A program made the position numbers and the translations under genes. A stretch of 64,000 bases of DNA. Source: Phreatobacter cathodiphilus. GTDB lineage: Bacteria > Pseudomonadota > Alphaproteobacteria > Rhizobiales > Phreatobacteraceae. The stretch lies in NCBI RefSeq assembly GCF_003008515.1, contig NZ_CP027668.1, forward strand, positions 3,947,001 to 4,011,000, read 5' to 3'. The notes under the pieces are model-generated. The model ran no database searches, was not told where the DNA came from, and worked only from the letters and a program-made list of their open reading frames with translations. Each line of letters opens with the position of its first letter. Position 1 is the stretch's first letter. Of this stretch, positions 42,495 to 50,613 are shown piece after piece.

Positions 42495-43531
42495 CCACCG
42501 ACACCCGCACCGTCACCGAGTTCTGGGTCTCCTCCGGCCATCACATGACCCGCCGCGTCGAGGGCGGCGGTCTTGCCGTCACCGACGAGATGATCCTCGC
42601 CTATCTCGCCCGCCCCGAACTGGTGCCGCCGCCAGAGGCCTGCACCGCCGAGCGCGCGCTCCACGCCGAACTGATGGCCGCGCCCCGCCGCCCCGTGACC
42701 GCCGCCATGATCGACGCCCTCGCCGACGAGGACGCCCGCGAGAACTGGCGCTTCATGATCGGCTTCCGCGACCGGCTCCTCGCCCATCCGAGCGTCGAGG
42801 CGGCCTATCTCTCCATCGTCCGCCAGGGCGCGAAGGGCGTGCCGCCGCTCTTCCTCAACCAGCTCGTCCATCTCGTCCTGCGCAATGCGCTGGACGGCTG
42901 CGAGGATCCCTTCGTCCTGCGCGCCGCCGAACTGCTGTTCCGCCCGCAGAAGGGTTCGCTCAAGGACGGCGCGCTGCTGCTCGCCGACCAAGAGTTGATC
43001 GAGAGCTTCGAGGCCGAACGGCAGGCGCTGCTCCACACCTCGCCGCTCGCCGCGATGATGGGTACCGACGCCATGGGCGACCTCGAGGTGATGACCGACG
43101 AGACCGCGCCCACCTACTGGTCGCGCTCGGACGCCTTCTCCATGGTCTTCAACCTCGGCGGCGACCCGCGCTCCCGCGAGGCCCTGTGCCGGGCGCTGGA
43201 GACCTGGATCGCCCACATGCTCGGCGTCGAGACCACCATCGCTCCGATCGAGCGCATCGAAGACGGGGACTGGCGCTGGTTCGTCGGCCTCGACGCCGAG
43301 GCGACCGCCATCGGCAACAGGCTGTGGCGGGGCGAGGCGGTGGACCCGGCCGACCAGAGCCGCGTCTGCGGCCTGTTCCGGCTCGATTTCGCCGATCCGC
43401 GCACCGTCGATCCCAAGCTAGCCGGCAAGCCTGTCTATCTCATCATGGCGCTGACCGAGGACATGATCCTCCGGGTCAAGCCGCAGAACCTGATCGTCGG
43501 CCTGCCGCTCGCCGGCCGGCAGGCGGCCTGA
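42491..43531 (+). CDS. DUF6352-like protein of the fdh locus
   Basis: 346-residue soluble protein starting MTTDTRTVTEFWVSSGHHMTRR. Mainly helical in the first 170 residues (ENWRFMIGFRDRLLAHPSVEAAY; LFLNQLVHLVLRNALDG), then beta-rich with WSRSDAFSMVFNLGGDPRSREALCRALETWIAHMLG and DWRWFVGLDAEATAIGNRLW. No membrane segment, no clear active site. ATGA overlap with the gene before, ten bases to the DUF3305 gene. Conserved in formate dehydrogenase clusters; function unknown. Confidence 0.72.
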   Translation: MTTDTRTVTEFWVSSGHHMTRRVEGGGLAVTDEMILAYLARPELVPPPEACTAERALHAELMAAPRRPVTAAMIDALADEDARENWRFMIGFRDRLLAHPSVEAAYLSIVRQGAKGVPPLFLNQLVHLVLRNALDGCEDPFVLRAAELLFRPQKGSLKDGALLLADQELIESFEAERQALLHTSPLAAMMGTDAMGDLEVMTDETAPTYWSRSDAFSMVFNLGGDPRSREALCRALETWIAHMLGVETTIAPIERIEDGDWRWFVGLDAEATAIGNRLWRGEAVDPADQSRVCGLFRLDFADPRTVDPKLAGKPVYLIMALTEDMILRVKPQNLIVGLPLAGRQAA

Positions 43532-43541
43532 GGAGACGCCC

Positions 43542-44057
43542 ATGCCCGTCCAGCACCTGACCGTCGGCATCGTCGCCGTGAAGCGCAAGCTGAACAATCC
43601 CTGGGTCGATTTCGAATGGCTTCCCGAGGCGGTGCTCCCCGGCCTTCCCGCCGTCGCGCCGGGCACGCGGATCGGTGCCGAAGGGGCGGTGGAACGCTGG
43701 TATATCGGCCCCGCGGACATCACGTTCCATTCCGGCGAGACGGCCCATTATCGCGACAATCTCGTCTCCGGCCGCCCCGCCGTCTGGGTGGCGCTGCGTG
43801 AGGGCGCCGACGGCGCCTGGACCGTGGCCGGCGCCACGGTGGATCCCTATGAGGGCGAGGCCTTCGTGGACGTGGTCACCGACAAGGTCGAGGCCCTGCC
43901 CATGCCGCACGAGATCGCCGTCGATCTCCAGGCCTTCGTCGACGCGCACCACGTCGACCAGCCCTTCTTCAAGCGCAAGCGCGACCGCAAGGACCCGCAT
44001 GCCGAGCCGGATTACGGCCTCGGCCACCCCGCCCGCCAGCCGGGGAGGCGGTCGTGA
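43542..44057 (+). CDS. DUF3305 protein of the fdh locus
   Basis: 171-residue protein (MPVQHLTVGIVAVKRKLNNPWVDFEWLP) with the DUF3305 pattern: RWYIGPADITFHSGETAHYRDNL and a C-terminal FFKRKRDRKDPHAEPDYGL. It is nearly always encoded next to DUF3306 and formate dehydrogenase genes. Basic tail of about 25 residues. Four-base overlap with the next GTG. Role unknown; probably in biogenesis rather than catalysis, because no cofactor motif is visible. Confidence 0.8.
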   Translation: MPVQHLTVGIVAVKRKLNNPWVDFEWLPEAVLPGLPAVAPGTRIGAEGAVERWYIGPADITFHSGETAHYRDNLVSGRPAVWVALREGADGAWTVAGATVDPYEGEAFVDVVTDKVEALPMPHEIAVDLQAFVDAHHVDQPFFKRKRDRKDPHAEPDYGLGHPARQPGRRS

Positions 44058-44737
44058 GCGGTGCCGACAAGGGGTTTCTCTCCCGCTGGTCGCGGCTGAA
44101 GCGCCAGCCAGCCCCGGCACCCGAACCTCCGGCGCCGGCCGCAGAACCCGCCGCCGCGCCCCTGCCCGAGGGCCAGGCGCTGGACGACCTCTTGGCACAG
44201 CTTCCCCGCATCGAGGATCTCGTTCCCGGCCAGAGCCTCTCGGCCTTCATGCAGCCCTGGGTGCCGACCGGCATCCGCAACGCCGCGCTCCAGCGCATGT
44301 GGCTCCTCGACCCGGCGATCCGCGATTATGTCAGCCCGGCGCTCGACTACGCCTACGACTACAACACGCCCGGCGGCGCACCGGGATTCGGCCCGATGGA
44401 AACCGGCCGGGACGCCATCCGGGAGGTCGCCGAGATGTTCGACCGGGCCCTTGGCAAGGCGCCTGAGGCCGATGCGGCGACGGCGGCAGGCGAACACGAC
44501 AATGTGTCGCAATCCGGTTCGGCAAACGCCCCTGCCGATGCTGCGATGCAGCAATCCTTCCCTGGCACGGCAGTCGTGCGCACGGAGGTATCCGGCGCCT
44601 CGGAAAAGACGTCTGGAAAAGCACAGGAAATCGGCGGGGAAGACGCGAAGGCCCCTGCTGCGGTGCACAAGAGTGCGAGTGAAACGAAGGACTTGCGGCC
44701 TGTCGGTCGCCGCCACGGAGGGGCGCTGCCGGGTTAG
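44054..44737 (+). CDS. DUF3306 protein of the fdh locus
   Basis: 227-residue protein with a GTG start. N-terminal GFLSRWSRLKRQ, a Pro/Ala-rich linker (about 18-38), then the conserved core LPRIEDLVPGQSLSAFMQPWVP...ALQRMWLLDPAIRDYVSPALDYAYDYN, and a disordered Ala/Ser-rich tail ending VGRRHGGALPG, where DUF3306 members often carry His/Arg-rich ends. Last gene of the accessory run; 70 bp separate it from the helix-turn-helix/TorD gene. Confidence 0.8.
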   Translation: MSGADKGFLSRWSRLKRQPAPAPEPPAPAAEPAAAPLPEGQALDDLLAQLPRIEDLVPGQSLSAFMQPWVPTGIRNAALQRMWLLDPAIRDYVSPALDYAYDYNTPGGAPGFGPMETGRDAIREVAEMFDRALGKAPEADAATAAGEHDNVSQSGSANAPADAAMQQSFPGTAVVRTEVSGASEKTSGKAQEIGGEDAKAPAAVHKSASETKDLRPVGRRHGGALPG

Positions 44738-44754
44738 GAAGGCCCTATGATCGC

Positions 44755-44784
44755 TTGCCATCACCCCTCATAGCTTGTAGCTAT
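44755..44784 (+). promoter_or_regulatory. Candidate promoter with 6-3-6 palindromic operator
   Basis: The short low-GC spacer contains TTGCCA (44755-44760) and, 17 bp on, TAGCTA at 44778, a weak -35/-10 pair. Over the -10 lies a perfect inverted repeat ATAGCT-TGT-AGCTAT (44770-44784), 24-38 bases before the start at 44808. A repressor bound here would block the promoter. Likely operator of the downstream helix-turn-helix/TorD protein itself (inference). Confidence 0.45.
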
Positions 44785-44807
44785 TCTAAGGCAAATGTGG
44801 TCAGCCT

Positions 44808-45668
44808 ATGACCAAGGCGCGGGACAGCGCCGGTCGGGTTCCAAGGGATTGGGCAGCAGTGCGTGAGCGGGGACTAGAGGAAGCGATCAAGGCGGTCGGC
44901 GGGGTGGGTGCCCTGGCGCGGGCGCTCGGCATTTCGCAGCCCTCCGTCTCGAGCTGGAGCCGCGTTCCGCCCGAGCGCGTCATCGCCGTCGAGAAGGTCT
45001 CCGGGGTCGGCCGCCATGTTCTGCGCCCCGACCTCTATCCCGAGAGCCGCTCCTCCATCGCCGTCGCCATGGAGGCTGCCCGCGACAAGGCCGGCACCGA
45101 CGAGATGGACCGGCTGCGCTCCGCCGAATACGGACTGCTCGCCCTCCTGCTCTTCCGCGTGCCGACCGCCGAGGTTCTGCGCCAGGTCGCCGAGCTGAAG
45201 GGCGACGTCTCGGCCCTCGGCATGGCCCATCTCGCCCTGGCACGGGCGGCCGCCGAGACCGACGAGGAGAAGGTCGGCCGCGAGTTCTTCGACCTCTTCG
45301 TCGGCGTCGGACGCGGCGAACTGCTGCCCTACGCCTCCTACTATCTGACCGGCTTCCTGCACGAGCGGCCGCTCGCCGCCGTGCGGCAGTCCTTCGTCGA
45401 CCTCGGCATCATTCGCGAGGACGGGTCGCGCGAGCCGGAAGACCATATCGCCCTGCTCTTCGACGTGATGGCGAACCTCGCCGCGCGGACGATCGGCGAG
45501 GGCTACGAGACGGAGAAGGCCTTCTTCGAGGCGCATCTGAAGCCTTGGGCCGGCCGCTTCTTCGCGGATCTGGAATCGATGACGAACAGGCCTTTCTACG
45601 CCGCGGTGGGCGCGGTCGGCCGGCTGTTCGTCGCCATCGAAGACGAGGCTTTCTCCTTCGACGCCTGA
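44808..45668 (+). CDS. Helix-turn-helix domain fused to TorD-type chaperone
   Basis: 286-residue protein. Residues about 22-60 form a Cro/YdaS-like DNA-binding domain: GLEEAIKAVGGVGALARALGISQPSVSSWSRVPPERV (in parts), where ALARALGISQPSVSSW is a textbook helix-turn-helix. Residues about 95-270 match the TorD/DmsD chaperone family: AEYGLLALLLFRVPTAEVL, EFFDLFVGVGRGELLPYASYYLTGFLHERPL and PEDHIALLFDVMANLA. TorD proteins bind the TAT leader and apo form of molybdoenzymes. It starts the operon that encodes the TAT peptide and formate dehydrogenase subunits. The ribosome site is weak. The fusion suggests a chaperone that also controls transcription. Confidence 0.85.
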   Translation: MTKARDSAGRVPRDWAAVRERGLEEAIKAVGGVGALARALGISQPSVSSWSRVPPERVIAVEKVSGVGRHVLRPDLYPESRSSIAVAMEAARDKAGTDEMDRLRSAEYGLLALLLFRVPTAEVLRQVAELKGDVSALGMAHLALARAAAETDEEKVGREFFDLFVGVGRGELLPYASYYLTGFLHERPLAAVRQSFVDLGIIREDGSREPEDHIALLFDVMANLAARTIGEGYETEKAFFEAHLKPWAGRFFADLESMTNRPFYAAVGAVGRLFVAIEDEAFSFDA

Positions 45669-45698
45669 GGCGCGGAGGACGAATGGGAGGACACGACC

Positions 45699-45923
45699 AT
45701 GTCGGATCATGCCAAAACCAAGGGAAACGCCGGAGCTCCGGCCCGCCGCGACTTCCTCAAGGCGATGACCGGTGCCTCGGCCGTCGCCGCGGCCGCCGTG
45801 GTCGGCTCCGAGCCCGCCGAGGCCCAGGCCGTCACCCGTGAAAGCCGCGACGAGCGCACCAAGGCCCGCTACCAGGCCAATTCGGCGCACGTCCAGGCCT
45901 TCTACCGCACCAACCGCTACTGA
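45699..45923 (+). CDS. Formate dehydrogenase region TAT-signal small protein
   Basis: 74-residue protein with a twin-arginine signal ARRDFLKAMTGASAVAAAAVVGSEPAEAQ; the mature part of only about 30 residues (AVTRESRDERTKARYQANSAHVQAFYRTNRY) is charged and ends in a Tyr/Arg-rich tail. This is the FdhX-type peptide seen just before formate dehydrogenase alpha genes in many proteobacteria. Role unproven; it may be a small subunit or a TAT escort. Thirteen bases upstream of the alpha gene; GGAGG about nine bases before its ATG. Confidence 0.88.
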   Translation: MSDHAKTKGNAGAPARRDFLKAMTGASAVAAAAVVGSEPAEAQAVTRESRDERTKARYQANSAHVQAFYRTNRY

Positions 45924-45936
45924 GAGGCGCCCCCCC

Positions 45937-48888
45937 ATGCTCATCAAGCGCAAGTCCGAGGACGCCGCCCGCACCCGTCTCGCCGGCCTCGCCGGCGGCC
46001 TGACCTCCGGTGTGATGGATCGCCGTACCTTCCTCGCCCGCTCGGGCCTCACCGCCGCCGGCGCCATCGCCGTCGGCTCGCTGACTTTGGGCGCGGTGCG
46101 CCGCGCCGAGGCCGTCGCCGCGCCCCAGCCGGGCGTCGCCATCACGGTCAAGAAGAACCTCTGCACCCACTGCTCGGTCGGCTGCACCGTGCGCGCCGAG
46201 GTGCAGAACGGCGTCTGGACCGGCCAGGAGCCGGCCTGGGAGAGCCCGATCAACCGCGGCACCCACTGCGCCAAGGGCGCCGCCTCCCGCGAGCTCGTCT
46301 TCGGCGAGCGCCGCGTCAAATATCCGATGAAGCTCGTCGGCGGCCAGTGGCAGCGCATCTCGTGGGACCAGGCGTTCAACGAGATCGGCGACAAGATGAT
46401 GGAGATCCGCGGCAAGTCCGGCGCCGATTCCGTCTACATGCTCGGCTCGGCCAAGTTCACCAACGAGGCGGCCTATCTGTTCCGCAAGTTCGCCGCCTTC
46501 TGGGGCACCAACAACGTCGACCACCAGGCCCGCATCTGCCACTCCACCACCGTGGCGGGCGTCGCCAACACCTGGGGCTACGGCGCCCAGACGAACTCCT
46601 ACAACGACATCCGCAACTCCAAGACCATGATCATCATGGGCGGCAACCCCGCCGAGGCCCATCCCGTTTCGCTGCAGCACGTGCTGAGCGGCAAGGAGAT
46701 GAACCGCGCCAACATGATCGTCATCGACCCCCGCATGACGCGCACCGCGGCCCATGCGACCGAATATGTGCGTATCCGCTCCGGCACCGACATTCCGGTG
46801 ATCTGGGGCATCATGTGGCACATCATCAAGAACGGCTGGGAGGACAAGGACTTCCTCGCCAAGCGCGTCTACGGCATGTCCGAGGCGCTGAAGGAAGTGG
46901 AGAAGTGGGACCCCAAGACCGTCGAGGACGTCACCGGCGTTCCCGGCGCGCAGCTCGAGCGGGTCGCCAAGCTCTTCGCCACCGAGAAGCCCTCGACGCT
47001 GATCTGGTGCATGGGCGCCACCCAGCACACGGTCGGCACCGCCAACGTGCGCGCCTACTGCACGCTGCTCCTGCTCACCGGCAACGTCGGCTCCGCCGGC
47101 ACCGGCGCCAACATCTTCCGCGGCCACACCAACGTCCAGGGTGCGACCGACCTCGGCCTCGATGTCGGCAACCTGCCGCTCTATTACGGCCTGGTCGAGG
47201 GCGCGTGGCGCCATTGGGCCCGCGTCTGGGACGTGCCCTACGACTATTTCGTCTCCCGCTTCGACGACGTGCCGGCCAAGGCCGGGCGCGGCGCCCGCAC
47301 GGGCAAGCAGAACATGGAGGTCTCGGGCATCCCCTCCACCCGCTGGTTCGACGCCACCCTGCTCCCCGGCGAGCAGGTCGACCAGAAGGACAACGTCAAG
47401 GCCATGTTCGTCATGGGCCACGGCGGCAACACGATCCCGCGCGTGCCCGGCGCGGTCGAGGGCCTCGGCAAGCTCGACCTGCTCGTGGTGGTCGATCCCC
47501 ATCCGACCAACTTCGTCTCGCTCGGCAACCGGCGCGACGGCACCTACATCCTGCCCGCCTGCACCAACTTCGAGTGTGACGGGTCGCGCACCGCCTCCAA
47601 CCGCTCCATCCAGTGGGGCGAGAAGGTGGTCGAGCCGATCTTCGAATCGGCCAACGACTACTGGATCATCTACAAGTTCGCCCAGAAGCTCGGCTTCGCC
47701 GGCGAGATGTTCAAGAACATCCAGATGGTGAAGGGCAAGTACGGCGACGAGCCCCAGGCCGAATCCATCCTGCGCGAGATCAACCGCGGCGGCTGGTCCA
47801 CCGGCTATACCGGCCAGTCGCCGGAGCGCATCAAGGCGCACATGGCGAACCAGGACAAGTTCGACATCGTCACCCTGCGCGCGCCGAAGGAGCTCGCCGA
47901 CATCGGCGGCGACTATTACGGCCTGCCCTGGCCCTGCTGGGGCAAGCCGGAGGTCCGCCACCCCGGCACGCACATCCTCTACAACACAAACCTGCGCATG
48001 ATGGACGGCGGCGGCGCCTTCCGTCCGCGCTTCGGCCTGGAGCGCAACGGCGAGACCCTGCTGGCGCAGAACTCCTGGAACCTCGATTCCCCGATCCAGG
48101 ACGGCTATCCGGAGTTCACCTATGCCGTGTTCCAGCGCCTCGGCTGGGACGCCGACCTGACGGCGGAGGAGAAGGCGCAGATCGAACGCCAGGGCGGCGC
48201 CAATGTCGGCGCGGTGTCCTGGGCCACCGACCTGTCGGGCGGCATCCAGCGCGTCTGCCTGCAGAAGAACGTGGTGCCCTTCGGCAACGGCAAGGCCCGC
48301 GCCATCGCCTGGAACCTGCCCGATCCCGTGCCGATCCATCGCGAGCCGATCTACACGCCCCGCCCCGATCTCGTGGCCAAGTATCCGGCCCGCGCCGACG
48401 AGCGGAACCTGCGCATGCCCAACCTCCACACGACCTACCAGAAGGGCGCCGTGGACAAGGGCATCGCCCGCCAGTTCCCGATCATCCTCACCTCCGGCCG
48501 CCTGGTCGAATATGAGGGCGGCGGCGAGGAGACGCGGTCCAACAAGTGGCTCGCCGAGCTGCAGCAGGACATGTTCGTCGAGATCAACCCGCGGGATGCC
48601 GCCCAGCGCAACATCGCCGACGGCGGCTGGGTCTGGGTGGCCGGCCCCGAGGGCGGCCGCGCCCGGGTCAAGGCGCTCGTCACCGAGCGCGTCGGTCCCG
48701 GCGTCGCCTGGATGCCGTTCCACTTCGGTGGCTGGTACCAGGGCGAGGACCAGCGCAAGAACTATCCGCAGGGGGCCGATCCGATCGTCCTCGGCGAGAG
48801 CGTCAACACCGTGACCACCTACGGCTACGACCCGGTGACGGGCATGCACGAAGGCAAGGCCACGCTCTGCCAGATCCAGGCGGCGTGA
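45937..48888 (+). CDS. fdhA: Formate dehydrogenase alpha (catalytic) subunit
   Basis: 983-residue bis-MGD molybdo/tungsto-enzyme that oxidises formate to CO2. TAT leader with Arg29-Arg30 (DRRTFLARSG), [4Fe-4S] cluster by Cys76, Cys79, Cys83 and Cys111, catalytic Cys201 followed by His202 (ARICHSTTVAG), and the bis-MGD domains with IIMGGNPAEAHP, TGNVGSAGTGANIFRGH and the C-terminal LTSGRLVEYEGGGEETRSN. The catalytic residue is Cys, not selenocysteine (TGC at 46537). Exported to the periplasm with the beta subunit. The start lies after seven C bases; the ribosome site GAGAGG is close by. Confidence 0.95.
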   Translation: MLIKRKSEDAARTRLAGLAGGLTSGVMDRRTFLARSGLTAAGAIAVGSLTLGAVRRAEAVAAPQPGVAITVKKNLCTHCSVGCTVRAEVQNGVWTGQEPAWESPINRGTHCAKGAASRELVFGERRVKYPMKLVGGQWQRISWDQAFNEIGDKMMEIRGKSGADSVYMLGSAKFTNEAAYLFRKFAAFWGTNNVDHQARICHSTTVAGVANTWGYGAQTNSYNDIRNSKTMIIMGGNPAEAHPVSLQHVLSGKEMNRANMIVIDPRMTRTAAHATEYVRIRSGTDIPVIWGIMWHIIKNGWEDKDFLAKRVYGMSEALKEVEKWDPKTVEDVTGVPGAQLERVAKLFATEKPSTLIWCMGATQHTVGTANVRAYCTLLLLTGNVGSAGTGANIFRGHTNVQGATDLGLDVGNLPLYYGLVEGAWRHWARVWDVPYDYFVSRFDDVPAKAGRGARTGKQNMEVSGIPSTRWFDATLLPGEQVDQKDNVKAMFVMGHGGNTIPRVPGAVEGLGKLDLLVVVDPHPTNFVSLGNRRDGTYILPACTNFECDGSRTASNRSIQWGEKVVEPIFESANDYWIIYKFAQKLGFAGEMFKNIQMVKGKYGDEPQAESILREINRGGWSTGYTGQSPERIKAHMANQDKFDIVTLRAPKELADIGGDYYGLPWPCWGKPEVRHPGTHILYNTNLRMMDGGGAFRPRFGLERNGETLLAQNSWNLDSPIQDGYPEFTYAVFQRLGWDADLTAEEKAQIERQGGANVGAVSWATDLSGGIQRVCLQKNVVPFGNGKARAIAWNLPDPVPIHREPIYTPRPDLVAKYPARADERNLRMPNLHTTYQKGAVDKGIARQFPIILTSGRLVEYEGGGEETRSNKWLAELQQDMFVEINPRDAAQRNIADGGWVWVAGPEGGRARVKALVTERVGPGVAWMPFHFGGWYQGEDQRKNYPQGADPIVLGESVNTVTTYGYDPVTGMHEGKATLCQIQAA

Positions 48889-48904: not shown

Positions 48905-49501
48905 ATGGCCCGCATGAAATTCCTCTGCGACGCTGATCGCTGCATCGAGTGCAACGCCTGCGTCACCGCCTGCAAGAACGAGCACGACGTGCCGTGGGGC
49001 ATCAACCGCCGGCGCGTCGTCACCCTCAACGACGGCAAGCCGGGCGAGCGCTCCATCTCCATGGCCTGCATGCACTGCACCGACGCGCCCTGCGCGGCGG
49101 TCTGTCCGGTGAACTGCTTCTACACCACGGCGGATGCGGTCGTGCTCCACTCCAAGGAGCTGTGCATCGGCTGCGGCTACTGCTTCTACGCCTGCCCCTT
49201 CGGCGCACCGCAATATCCGCGCGTCGGCAATTTCGGCTCGCGCGGCAAGATGGACAAGTGCACCTACTGCGCCGGCGGCCCCCTCGCCGACGGCTCCGCC
49301 GCCGAATACGCCTCCTACGGGGCCAACCGCCTCGCCGAGGGCAAGCTGCCGCTCTGCGCCGAGATGTGCTCCACCAAGGCGCTGCTCGCCGGCGACAGCG
49401 ACATGATCGCGACCATCTACAAGGAGCGCGTGCTGAAGCGCGGCTACGGCTCCGGCGCCTGGGGCTGGCAGACGGCCTACAAGGAAACCATCGCCATCTG
49501 A
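48905..49501 (+). CDS. fdhB: Formate dehydrogenase beta subunit (four 4Fe-4S)
   Basis: 198-residue electron-transfer subunit. Cys motifs for four [4Fe-4S] clusters: CIECNACVTACKNE, CMHCTDAPCAAVCPVNC, CIGCGYCFYACPFGAP and CTYC...CAEMCSTKA. It lacks the C-terminal transmembrane helix found in the longer E. coli FdnH, so membrane anchoring depends on gamma alone; this is the shorter FDH3-type subunit. It has no signal and is exported piggy-back on alpha. 16 bp after fdhA. Confidence 0.94.
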   Translation: MARMKFLCDADRCIECNACVTACKNEHDVPWGINRRRVVTLNDGKPGERSISMACMHCTDAPCAAVCPVNCFYTTADAVVLHSKELCIGCGYCFYACPFGAPQYPRVGNFGSRGKMDKCTYCAGGPLADGSAAEYASYGANRLAEGKLPLCAEMCSTKALLAGDSDMIATIYKERVLKRGYGSGAWGWQTAYKETIAI

Positions 49502-49593: not shown

Positions 49594-50613
49594 ATGCGCG
49601 TCTCGCTTCGGTCTCTCGTTGCAGCCCTCGCCGTTGCAATGGCCGTCTTCGTCGCTGCGCCGGCCTTCGCCCAGCAGCCGGCTTCCGTGAATCCGACCGC
49701 CGCCTCCGTCAAGGAGCAGCAGCTGATGCAGGCCCTGCAGGCGGGCACGCCCGGCCAGGGCACCACGCTCTCCGGCCGCATCACCATTCCCGACGCGGGT
49801 GCCGGCAATCTCATCCAGCCCCAGGGCCAGGCCTGGCGGGCCTTCCACCAGGGCACCATGCACTGGATCGGCGCCATCGCCATCCTCGGCATGCTGGCGG
49901 CGCTCACCCTCTTCTACCTGGTGCGCGGCCGCATCATGATCGAGGCCGGCCGCTCCGGCGCCTCCATCCTGCGCTTCTCCACCTTCGAGCGCTTCATCCA
50001 CTGGCTCACGGCGGGCTGCTTCATCATCCTCGCCCTGTCGGGGCTGAACGTCACCTTCGGCAAGTTCATCCTGGCGCCGATCGTCGGCGAGGGCGCCTTC
50101 GCCGCCCTGTCGCAGTGGGCCAAATACGCCCACAACTACCTCGCCTGGCCCTTCATGCTCGGGCTGGTCTTCATGTTCGTCACCTGGGTGATCCACAACA
50201 TCCCCGACGGCACGGACATCGTCTGGTTCAAGAAGGGCGGCGGCCTCGTCGGCGGCGAGCATCCCCCCGCCAAGAAGTTCAACGCCGGACAGAAGCTCAT
50301 CTTCTGGTCGGTGATCGTCGGCGGCGGCCTGCTCTCCCTGTCGGGCGTCTACATGCTCTTCCCGGCCTCGGCCGGCGGCGTGCTCGCCCTGCAGTTCTGG
50401 AACATCGTCCACGGGGTCGTCGCGGTTCTGCTCATCGCCGCCATGATCGCCCACATCTATATCGGCTCCATCGGCATGGAGGGAGCGGCGGACGCCATGA
50501 CCTCCGGCGAGGTCGATCTCAACTGGGCCAAGGAGCACCATTCGCTCTGGGTCGAGGAGAAGCTGGCGCGCGGCGCCGTGCATCCCCACGCCGCCGGCCA
50601 GCCGGCCGAATAA
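49594..50613 (+). CDS. fdhC: Formate dehydrogenase gamma subunit, cytochrome b556
   Basis: 339-residue membrane subunit. Cleavable-looking signal (MRVSLRSLVAALAVAMAVFVAAPAFAQ, in parts), a periplasmic stretch to about 95, then helices at about 88-110, 132-155, 178-200, 235-258 and 272-295. Heme b ligands are likely among the His in FERFIHWL, YAHNYLAWP and NIVHGVVA / MIAHIYIG. It passes electrons from the beta subunit to quinone. The signal plus extra N-terminal segment is the long form usual in alphaproteobacteria. Start at 49594 with GGAGGA. Confidence 0.93.
   Translation: MRVSLRSLVAALAVAMAVFVAAPAFAQQPASVNPTAASVKEQQLMQALQAGTPGQGTTLSGRITIPDAGAGNLIQPQGQAWRAFHQGTMHWIGAIAILGMLAALTLFYLVRGRIMIEAGRSGASILRFSTFERFIHWLTAGCFIILALSGLNVTFGKFILAPIVGEGAFAALSQWAKYAHNYLAWPFMLGLVFMFVTWVIHNIPDGTDIVWFKKGGGLVGGEHPPAKKFNAGQKLIFWSVIVGGGLLSLSGVYMLFPASAGGVLALQFWNIVHGVVAVLLIAAMIAHIYIGSIGMEGAADAMTSGEVDLNWAKEHHSLWVEEKLARGAVHPHAAGQPAE

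Follow-up and report, generated by a model that had tools for sequence, protein, structure and literature searches.

A Cro-type helix-turn-helix fused to a TorD-type chaperone and its predicted operator at a formate dehydrogenase locus

Introduction

Why should a chaperone for a molybdenum enzyme carry a DNA-binding domain? The question is raised by a formate dehydrogenase (fdh) locus of Phreatobacter cathodiphilus, which lies in a 64,000-nucleotide stretch of the genome (contig NZ_CP027668.1 of assembly GCF_003008515.1, positions 3,947,001 to 4,011,000; hereafter the window, in whose positions all coordinates are given). There, one gene joins a Cro/YdaS-type helix-turn-helix (HTH) head to a TorD-type chaperone domain (the HTH-TorD gene), and a 17-bp inverted repeat precedes it. 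Our preferred reading, to which we assign a probability of about 0.55, is that its product is repressor and chaperone in one polypeptide, with a head that would sit on its own operator and an engagement of apo-FdhA, the immature catalytic subunit, that would free the DNA. In this one molecule, enzyme assembly is probably tied to gene expression, a matter that bears on how cells keep the output of cofactor-rich enzymes in line with the pace of their assembly.

Results

Domains of the HTH-TorD protein

The gene and its parts are as follows.

44808..45668, plus strand: HTH-TorD gene, 286 amino acids, putative autoregulator and chaperone (open reading frame (ORF), Pfam, AlphaFold2 model and family matches).
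44868..45023, plus strand: Cro/YdaS-type HTH head, residues 21-72 in the model (Pfam match 23-79).
44937..44951, plus strand: recognition helix QPSVS, residues 44-48; the Ser46 codon is 44943-44945, and Ser46 covaries with operator positions 5 and 13.
45024..45101, plus strand: flexible, weakly conserved linker, residues 73-98 (low predicted local distance difference test score, pLDDT; ratio of nonsynonymous to synonymous polymorphism, pN/pS).
45102..45653, plus strand: TorD/DmsD-type chaperone domain, residues 99-282 (Pfam, model and structure matches).

The head matched two Pfam families, YdaS_toxin (PF15943; E-value 3.1e-16, residues 23-79, 59.4 bits against a curated cut-off of 30), in which 'toxin' is the Pfam label and nothing more, and P22_Cro (PF14549; 1.1e-8, residues 24-64, 35.2 bits against a curated cut-off of 30.2), and the C-terminal part matched Nitrate_red_del (TorD/NarJ; PF02613; 1.4e-30, residues 136-253, 106.6 bits against 22.2). 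All three were matched at E <= 0.001 by each of the 57 aligned family members. Because the protein fell below both NCBIfam equivalog cut-offs, scoring 56.8 bits for TorD (cut-off 132) and 39.3 bits for DmsD (cut-off 162), we regard its chaperone part as a member of the superfamily and not as TorD or DmsD proper.

The AlphaFold2 model, built from 57 sequences, places helices at residues 21-72 (pLDDT 87-93 per 10-residue block, 73 for block 71-80), a low-confidence linker at about 73-98 and a helical domain at 99-282, most of whose blocks reach 90 or more and a few 70-76. In Foldseek searches the TorD part matched YcdY and DmsD (E-values of 1.8e-5 to 2.5e-4), and the head matched prophage Cro 3bd1 (E-values of 0.046-0.10, probability 1.00, 41% identity, root-mean-square deviation 1.2-1.4) and P22 Cro (1.9), values at which the head alone is without significance by Foldseek. 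By sequence, 3bd1 is also the best solved structure for the head, at 6e-7, or 2.1e-11 using the family profile, and among PHROGs the head best matches a family of phage transcriptional repressors. The fusion, which a preliminary description had claimed, is borne out by the Pfam matches, the model and the agreement of all 57 members, and the N-terminal 80 residues, where it had placed a DNA-binding fold, yield one in both profile search and structure model. The span that it had given, 44755-45668, holds in part: the ORF is there and starts at 44808, and the stretch from 44755 is upstream DNA.

Among 13 near relatives, pN/pS was 0.17 for residues 19-80, 0.58 for residues 81-97 and 0.28 for residues 98-286; the HTH head is under no less constraint than the chaperone domain, and a value of 0.17 speaks against a vestigial HTH. 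The TorD residues P174, S177, Y179, G182, R187, E211, D212 and H213, some of which we take to line the leader pocket, are invariant in the 57 members, so the chaperone part appears intact, and its sequence looks free of any sign that chaperone function has been abandoned.

A conserved inverted repeat upstream of fused genes

The gap between the DUF3306 gene, the next gene upstream, and the HTH-TorD gene holds a candidate operator.

44769..44785, no strand assigned: operator CATAGCTTGTAGCTATT, a 17-bp inverted repeat with arms CATAG and CTATT around the spacer CTTGTAG.

It lies 22 bp from the ATG. When upstream regions of 12 members of the genus were aligned, the element was found in 12 of 12, and the block CATAGCTTG(T/G)A(G/C)CTATTC was nearly invariant amid an otherwise variable region; CATAG-N7-CTATG or a variant of it stood in nine other loci.

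For a wider comparison, loci (given here as L plus a number) were taken from the best genome-search matches, a best-scoring and not a random sample in which the named relatives are the best 80 of at least 584. The 213 TorD-bearing loci reduced to 154 with distinct last-150-residue ends, comprising 108 with the HTH, as identified by a regular expression, and 46 without it; the 46 include L193, L194 and L197, which were later found to carry a divergent HTH, and the other 43 are HTH-less. A mis-called start as the source of the fusion was dropped as an explanation, since the head keeps the reading frame, with no stop, across 108 distinct genes.

We searched upstream windows of 450 bp for fused genes, where available, and 600 bp for unfused ones (352 bp for L025) with the pattern NATA(A/G)-N7-(C/T)TATN, in which positions 5 and 13 were required to be complementary. 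The pattern had first been noticed in 21 distinct genes (21 of 21), and its final form was fixed after a first look at the rest. Sites were present upstream of 104 of the 108 distinct fused genes and none of the 46 others, against a background of 10 sites in the 1.15 Mb that make up the rest of the named loci, or 0.004 per 450 bp. They begin a median of 20 bp past the DUF3306 stop (range -10 to 200). One of the four fused genes without a site, L145, misses it because its contig ends there and no upstream DNA is available.

Across the 4.49-Mb genome, CATAGN7CTATK occurs at a single site, the operator, and not at all in the reversed control, while the looser ATARN7YTAT occurs at 10 places compared with 15 in the reversed control; a wide regulon was dropped as a candidate on these counts. 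Two of the other looser places lie beside a LysR-like ORF and inside a glycosyltransferase-like ORF, as read from their translations.

Some further elements were seen around the operators. In the window, CTATGA half-sites at 44745-44750 and 44806-44811, the second of which spans the start codon, flank the operator and could be extra weak sites. Two operator-like sites precede a single fused gene in L102, L111, L147, L149 and L188. Past the operator, L013, L014 and L021 have ATTCCAGTTC in common, and L013 and L014 carry a near palindrome, GGAATAATTCC, possibly the site of another regulator.

Head and operator are absent together

In a tree that included unfused relatives (151 of the 154 distinct genes; root not inferred), all 108 fused genes formed one set (Shimodaira-Hasegawa-like approximate likelihood-ratio support of 95) with six HTH-less genes nested in it: L022, L023, L024, L025, L027 and L047. 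None of the six has the operator, L025 with its shorter upstream window included. The natural reading is that the HTH was lost in these genes, on a tree in which L023 and L027 sit on long branches. In L047, and in L059, which takes the same place as L027, torD lies after fdhABC. No detached HTH gene was found near the unfused torD within 1.5 kb upstream (less where the locus was shorter) in 43 of the 46 loci, and the three remaining loci of this class are the divergent fusions. A 380-residue open frame in L047 (G161:C97:551000-566000) seems to join DUF3306-like sequence to TorD, and the same genome also holds the HTH-TorD locus L013.

Residue 46 of the head covaries with the operator

Of the 104 genes with an operator, 92 have G at position 5 and 12 have A, and the search rule fixes position 13 as the complement. 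The recognition helix carries Ser or Thr at residue 46 in 92 of 92 genes with G5/C13 and Ala in 12 of 12 with A5/T13; the symmetry of the operator was built into the search pattern, and the match to residue 46 was not. Of the 40 HTH-region columns scanned, that of residue 46 had the highest mutual information with position 5. When both traits were placed on a tree of the 104 genes built from the TorD part alone, with the HTH left out, three changes were needed per trait, two of them forced by starred branches, and the changes coincide because the labels agree in all 104 rows. One switch divides L105 from its neighbour, Afipia L087. A second covariation, of residue 34 with operator positions 1 and 17, was set aside, as most of its signal comes from one group.

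Direct recognition and autoregulation are well supported because operator presence, joint absence and covariation agree, and from these comparisons the head very probably recognises the operator itself. The operator of its own that the preliminary description had proposed thus stands, on conservation, covariation and joint absence. That the repeat belongs to some other regulator, or that the fused protein activates, would be in keeping with the lack of a promoter element located relative to the site; we consider it very unlikely, because the site is missing in all 43 HTH-less relatives, although FdhA lies downstream in 15 of the 17 unfused loci whose context was examined, just as in the fused loci, and because the site tracks residue 46 of the fused head. 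Still less credence is due to the idea that the HTH is vestigial or structural and its association with the operator a matter of chance, against which stand the low pN/pS of the head, 104 sites in 108 genes where 0.004 per gene are expected, and the covariation.

Distribution, a divergent fusion and the origin of the head

The HTH-TorD gene is present in 12 of 12 genomes of the genus. The best 80 of at least 584 named relatives are all fused, that is, matched from residue 29 or earlier, and come from Phreatobacter, Bosea, Bradyrhizobium, Afipia, Salinarimonas, Methylocystis, Pseudolabrys, Nitrobacter, Mesorhizobium, Chelativorans, Rhodoblastus and other genera. Counting a gene as fused if the match begins in the head and extends into the TorD domain without an internal stop, we found fusions in 37 of 397 genomes of the order, 12 of them from Phreatobacter, and in 10 of 397 genomes of the phylum, every one of which belongs to the window's order; one more long match among the latter, from outside the class, carries an internal stop. 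Four fused genes (L186, L188, L189 and L190) come from elsewhere in the class. Three copies on Bradyrhizobium plasmids, whose matches begin at residue 18, bear the annotation 'molecular chaperone TorD family protein'.

A different YdaS head, with a helix ending in WHW, is joined to TorD in L193 and its relatives, which occur in 10 of 18 genomes of L193's order (full-length rows). The TorD parts of L193 and L194 fall outside the main fused set of the tree, and 8 of 10 upstream regions of these divergent fusions (L193, L240-L248) contain ACAAA-N4-TTTGT at a similar place, a count made with no chance control. Judged from sequence, this lineage looks like a separate fusion; a single ancient fusion followed by losses is possible. 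L197 is a third placement of the divergent HTH, and an inverted-repeat scan of its upstream region turned up nothing. A TTTCGCA block is conserved farther up in the divergent family (L193, L240-L248).

Cro-like ORFs from genomes of the same order are similar to the head over most of the small protein, an RPDLYP-like tail included. Close stand-alone relatives of the head, L069, L070 and L071, adjoin ORFs read as CI-like repressors; two such stand-alone ORFs are 53-55% identical to the head, and Pfam confirms two. Matches to the head also came from four phage records, one of which is annotated 'Cro repressor'. The simplest reading is that a phage cro gene was captured to give the head.

These fusions bear on a plainer account, in which the protein is an autorepressor that sets a fixed operon level by its total amount, with the TorD domain serving for dimerisation and no client being sensed. 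All of the DNA-side evidence fits this account equally well, and the linker, poorly conserved and modelled with low confidence, offers no hint of allosteric coupling. Such a task could, however, be done by a separate small Cro, yet the chaperone fusion occurs in 108 distinct genes and a divergent one is found in another family, and we regard plain autorepression as unlikely, while ranking it first among the rivals.

The fdh locus and its gene order

The neighbouring genes are as follows.

43542..44057, plus strand: DUF3305-type gene (named after PMC4464133; conserved order).
44054..44737, plus strand: DUF3306 gene (Pfam 9.2e-11); its stop is at 44737, and the operator begins 32 bp later.
45699..45923, plus strand: formate dehydrogenase-region twin-arginine translocation (TAT) peptide, 74 amino acids (TIGR02811 2.9e-10, 40.3 bits, under the cut-off of 48.45).
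45937..48888, plus strand: FdhA, molybdopterin formate dehydrogenase catalytic subunit with an RRTFL leader (PF00384 4.6e-49).
48905..49501, plus strand: FdhB, FDH3 beta subunit (NF038355, 334 bits, cut-off 240).
49594..50613, plus strand: FdhC, membrane gamma subunit (named from context and sequence; conserved order).

The best NCBIfam match of FdhA, whose TAT leader was taken from reading the sequence, is Fdh-alpha at 463 bits, under the cut-off of 666. FdhC is followed by MobB and then by ORFs read as further molybdenum-cofactor genes. The HTH-TorD gene had been described as opening the operon, which it does not: the DUF3306 gene precedes it, as do the DUF3305-type gene and more ORFs of the same strand before that. 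It is the first gene past a 70-bp gap after DUF3306 and the first after the operator.

When the 80 named loci were searched with 14 window proteins, FdhA lay downstream of the HTH-TorD gene in all 80, and DUF3306 was the next upstream match in 79, the exception being L145, which starts at a contig end. In this fdh setting, with FdhA always downstream and no lysogeny module, the head is to be seen as a Cro-type domain and not as a phage Cro regulator. FdhA is the presumed client of the chaperone, and the protein probably assembles the molybdenum formate dehydrogenase. Its position supports the view that it may regulate the torD-fdh unit.

Control of the operon by a molybdenum-cofactor riboswitch was dropped as a candidate, since Rfam gave no match at E <= 0.1 in 43500-46500, around the operon start. 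A single minus-strand terminator-like hairpin at window 44798-44814 lies over the torD start (shuffle mean 0.2).

Discussion

The comparisons support recognition of the 17-bp operator by the Cro-type head whose gene it precedes, and head, operator and fdh operon are found as a set. The two-fold symmetry of the operator suggests that the protein would bind it as a dimer. Cro proteins usually act as repressors, and the bound protein would repress a torD-TAT-fdhABC promoter. A free chaperone with no apo-FdhA waiting would hold the operator; once the TorD domain engages the FdhA leader or the apo-enzyme, the protein would leave the DNA, following the logic of BirA. The operon would then be on while client awaits maturation and off as free chaperone accumulates. 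We put forward tentatively, and at somewhat less than even odds, the wider proposal that the apo-enzyme is sensed directly, in competition with DNA and with no second regulator, and that TorD lineages acquired Cro-type heads on more than one occasion, with a separate operator for each.

Several points weigh against repression relieved by the client. A sigma-70 scan of 44650-44860 found no promoter-like site to set the operator against, so repression is not supported by position. The 83 operators in the 87 fused genes beyond the 21 of discovery are not a blind test, because the pattern was settled after those loci had been seen, and the fused loci L133, L136 and L151 lack an exact operator (L136 has a near-match by eye). 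With only three switches of residue and operator, two of them forced by starred branches, a sign test cannot reach significance, and one switch row, L020, sits on a long branch of unsure placement. The TAT peptide went undetected in 27 of the 80 named loci and is therefore not a required client.

The sign of the response could also be the opposite, with the client-loaded chaperone binding DNA so that FdhA awaiting maturation would turn off its operon whenever cofactor or TAT export runs short. This would make physiological sense, with the autoregulation of E. coli torCAD and its cofactor dependence as parallels. Free Cro-type proteins, however, bind DNA without a ligand, and we judge this alternative improbable, clearly more so than plain autorepression.

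If release of the head by apo-FdhA is correct, a chaperone would act as its own transcription factor, with a DNA target predicted to the level of individual bases and a single residue, and a Cro-type domain would have been recruited into metabolic control. The prediction could be tested in widespread soil bacteria, Bradyrhizobium and Bosea among them, and the protein is a possible biosensor for an apo-molybdoenzyme.

A survey of the chaperone family (PMC4464133) describes torD-fdh loci and dmsD-fdh loci with DUF3305/DUF3306. The terms 'helix-turn-helix', 'HTH', 'DNA binding', 'fused' and 'fusion' are all absent from its main text, and a term search of a review (PMC10609526) gave no DNA-binding or feedback passage. 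In the portion of the open-licence PMC literature covered, we recognised no description of an HTH-TorD fusion.

The two halves of the protein each have known counterparts. With the TorD/DmsD/NarJ proteins (PF02613; PDB 1n1c, 3cw0 and 9m26) it shares a TorD-type domain, conserved residues and linkage to the enzyme, but the PDB matches to its TorD-type and Cro-type parts are separate chains, none of which spans both. With phage Cro/YdaS proteins (PF15943 and PF14549; PDB 3bd1 and 1rzs) it shares head sequence, modelled fold, recognition helix and RPDLYP-like tail, as well as a palindromic operator near its own gene that, by comparison, fits the recognition helix. The head differs from these in lying in an fdh operon and not in a prophage, and in being fused to a chaperone.

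The proposed circuit has parallels as well. In chaperone-titration circuits such as HrcA/GroEL and FliT/FlhDC, client load on a chaperone sets transcription; two separate proteins do there what one polypeptide would do here. In the TorC/TorS system of E. coli, as proposed here, operon transcription reports the maturation state of an enzyme, but it does so via a sensor kinase and not via the chaperone. The title of a 2001 report by Gon and co-workers, cited in PMC10845959, speaks of torCAD autoregulation by apocytochrome TorC and TorS. According to PMC10845959, torCAD also depends on levels of bis-molybdopterin guanine dinucleotide (bis-MGD). Closest in logic is BirA, which HTH-TorD resembles in having an HTH and a maturation module in one chain and an operator at its own operon. 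BirA joins an HTH to a maturation factor, has its operator at a related operon, and its unmodified protein substrate competes with DNA binding. Whereas BirA is an enzyme that senses biotinyl-AMP and the apo form of biotin carboxyl carrier protein (apo-BCCP), the part fused to the head in HTH-TorD is a molybdoenzyme chaperone, which would sense its client.
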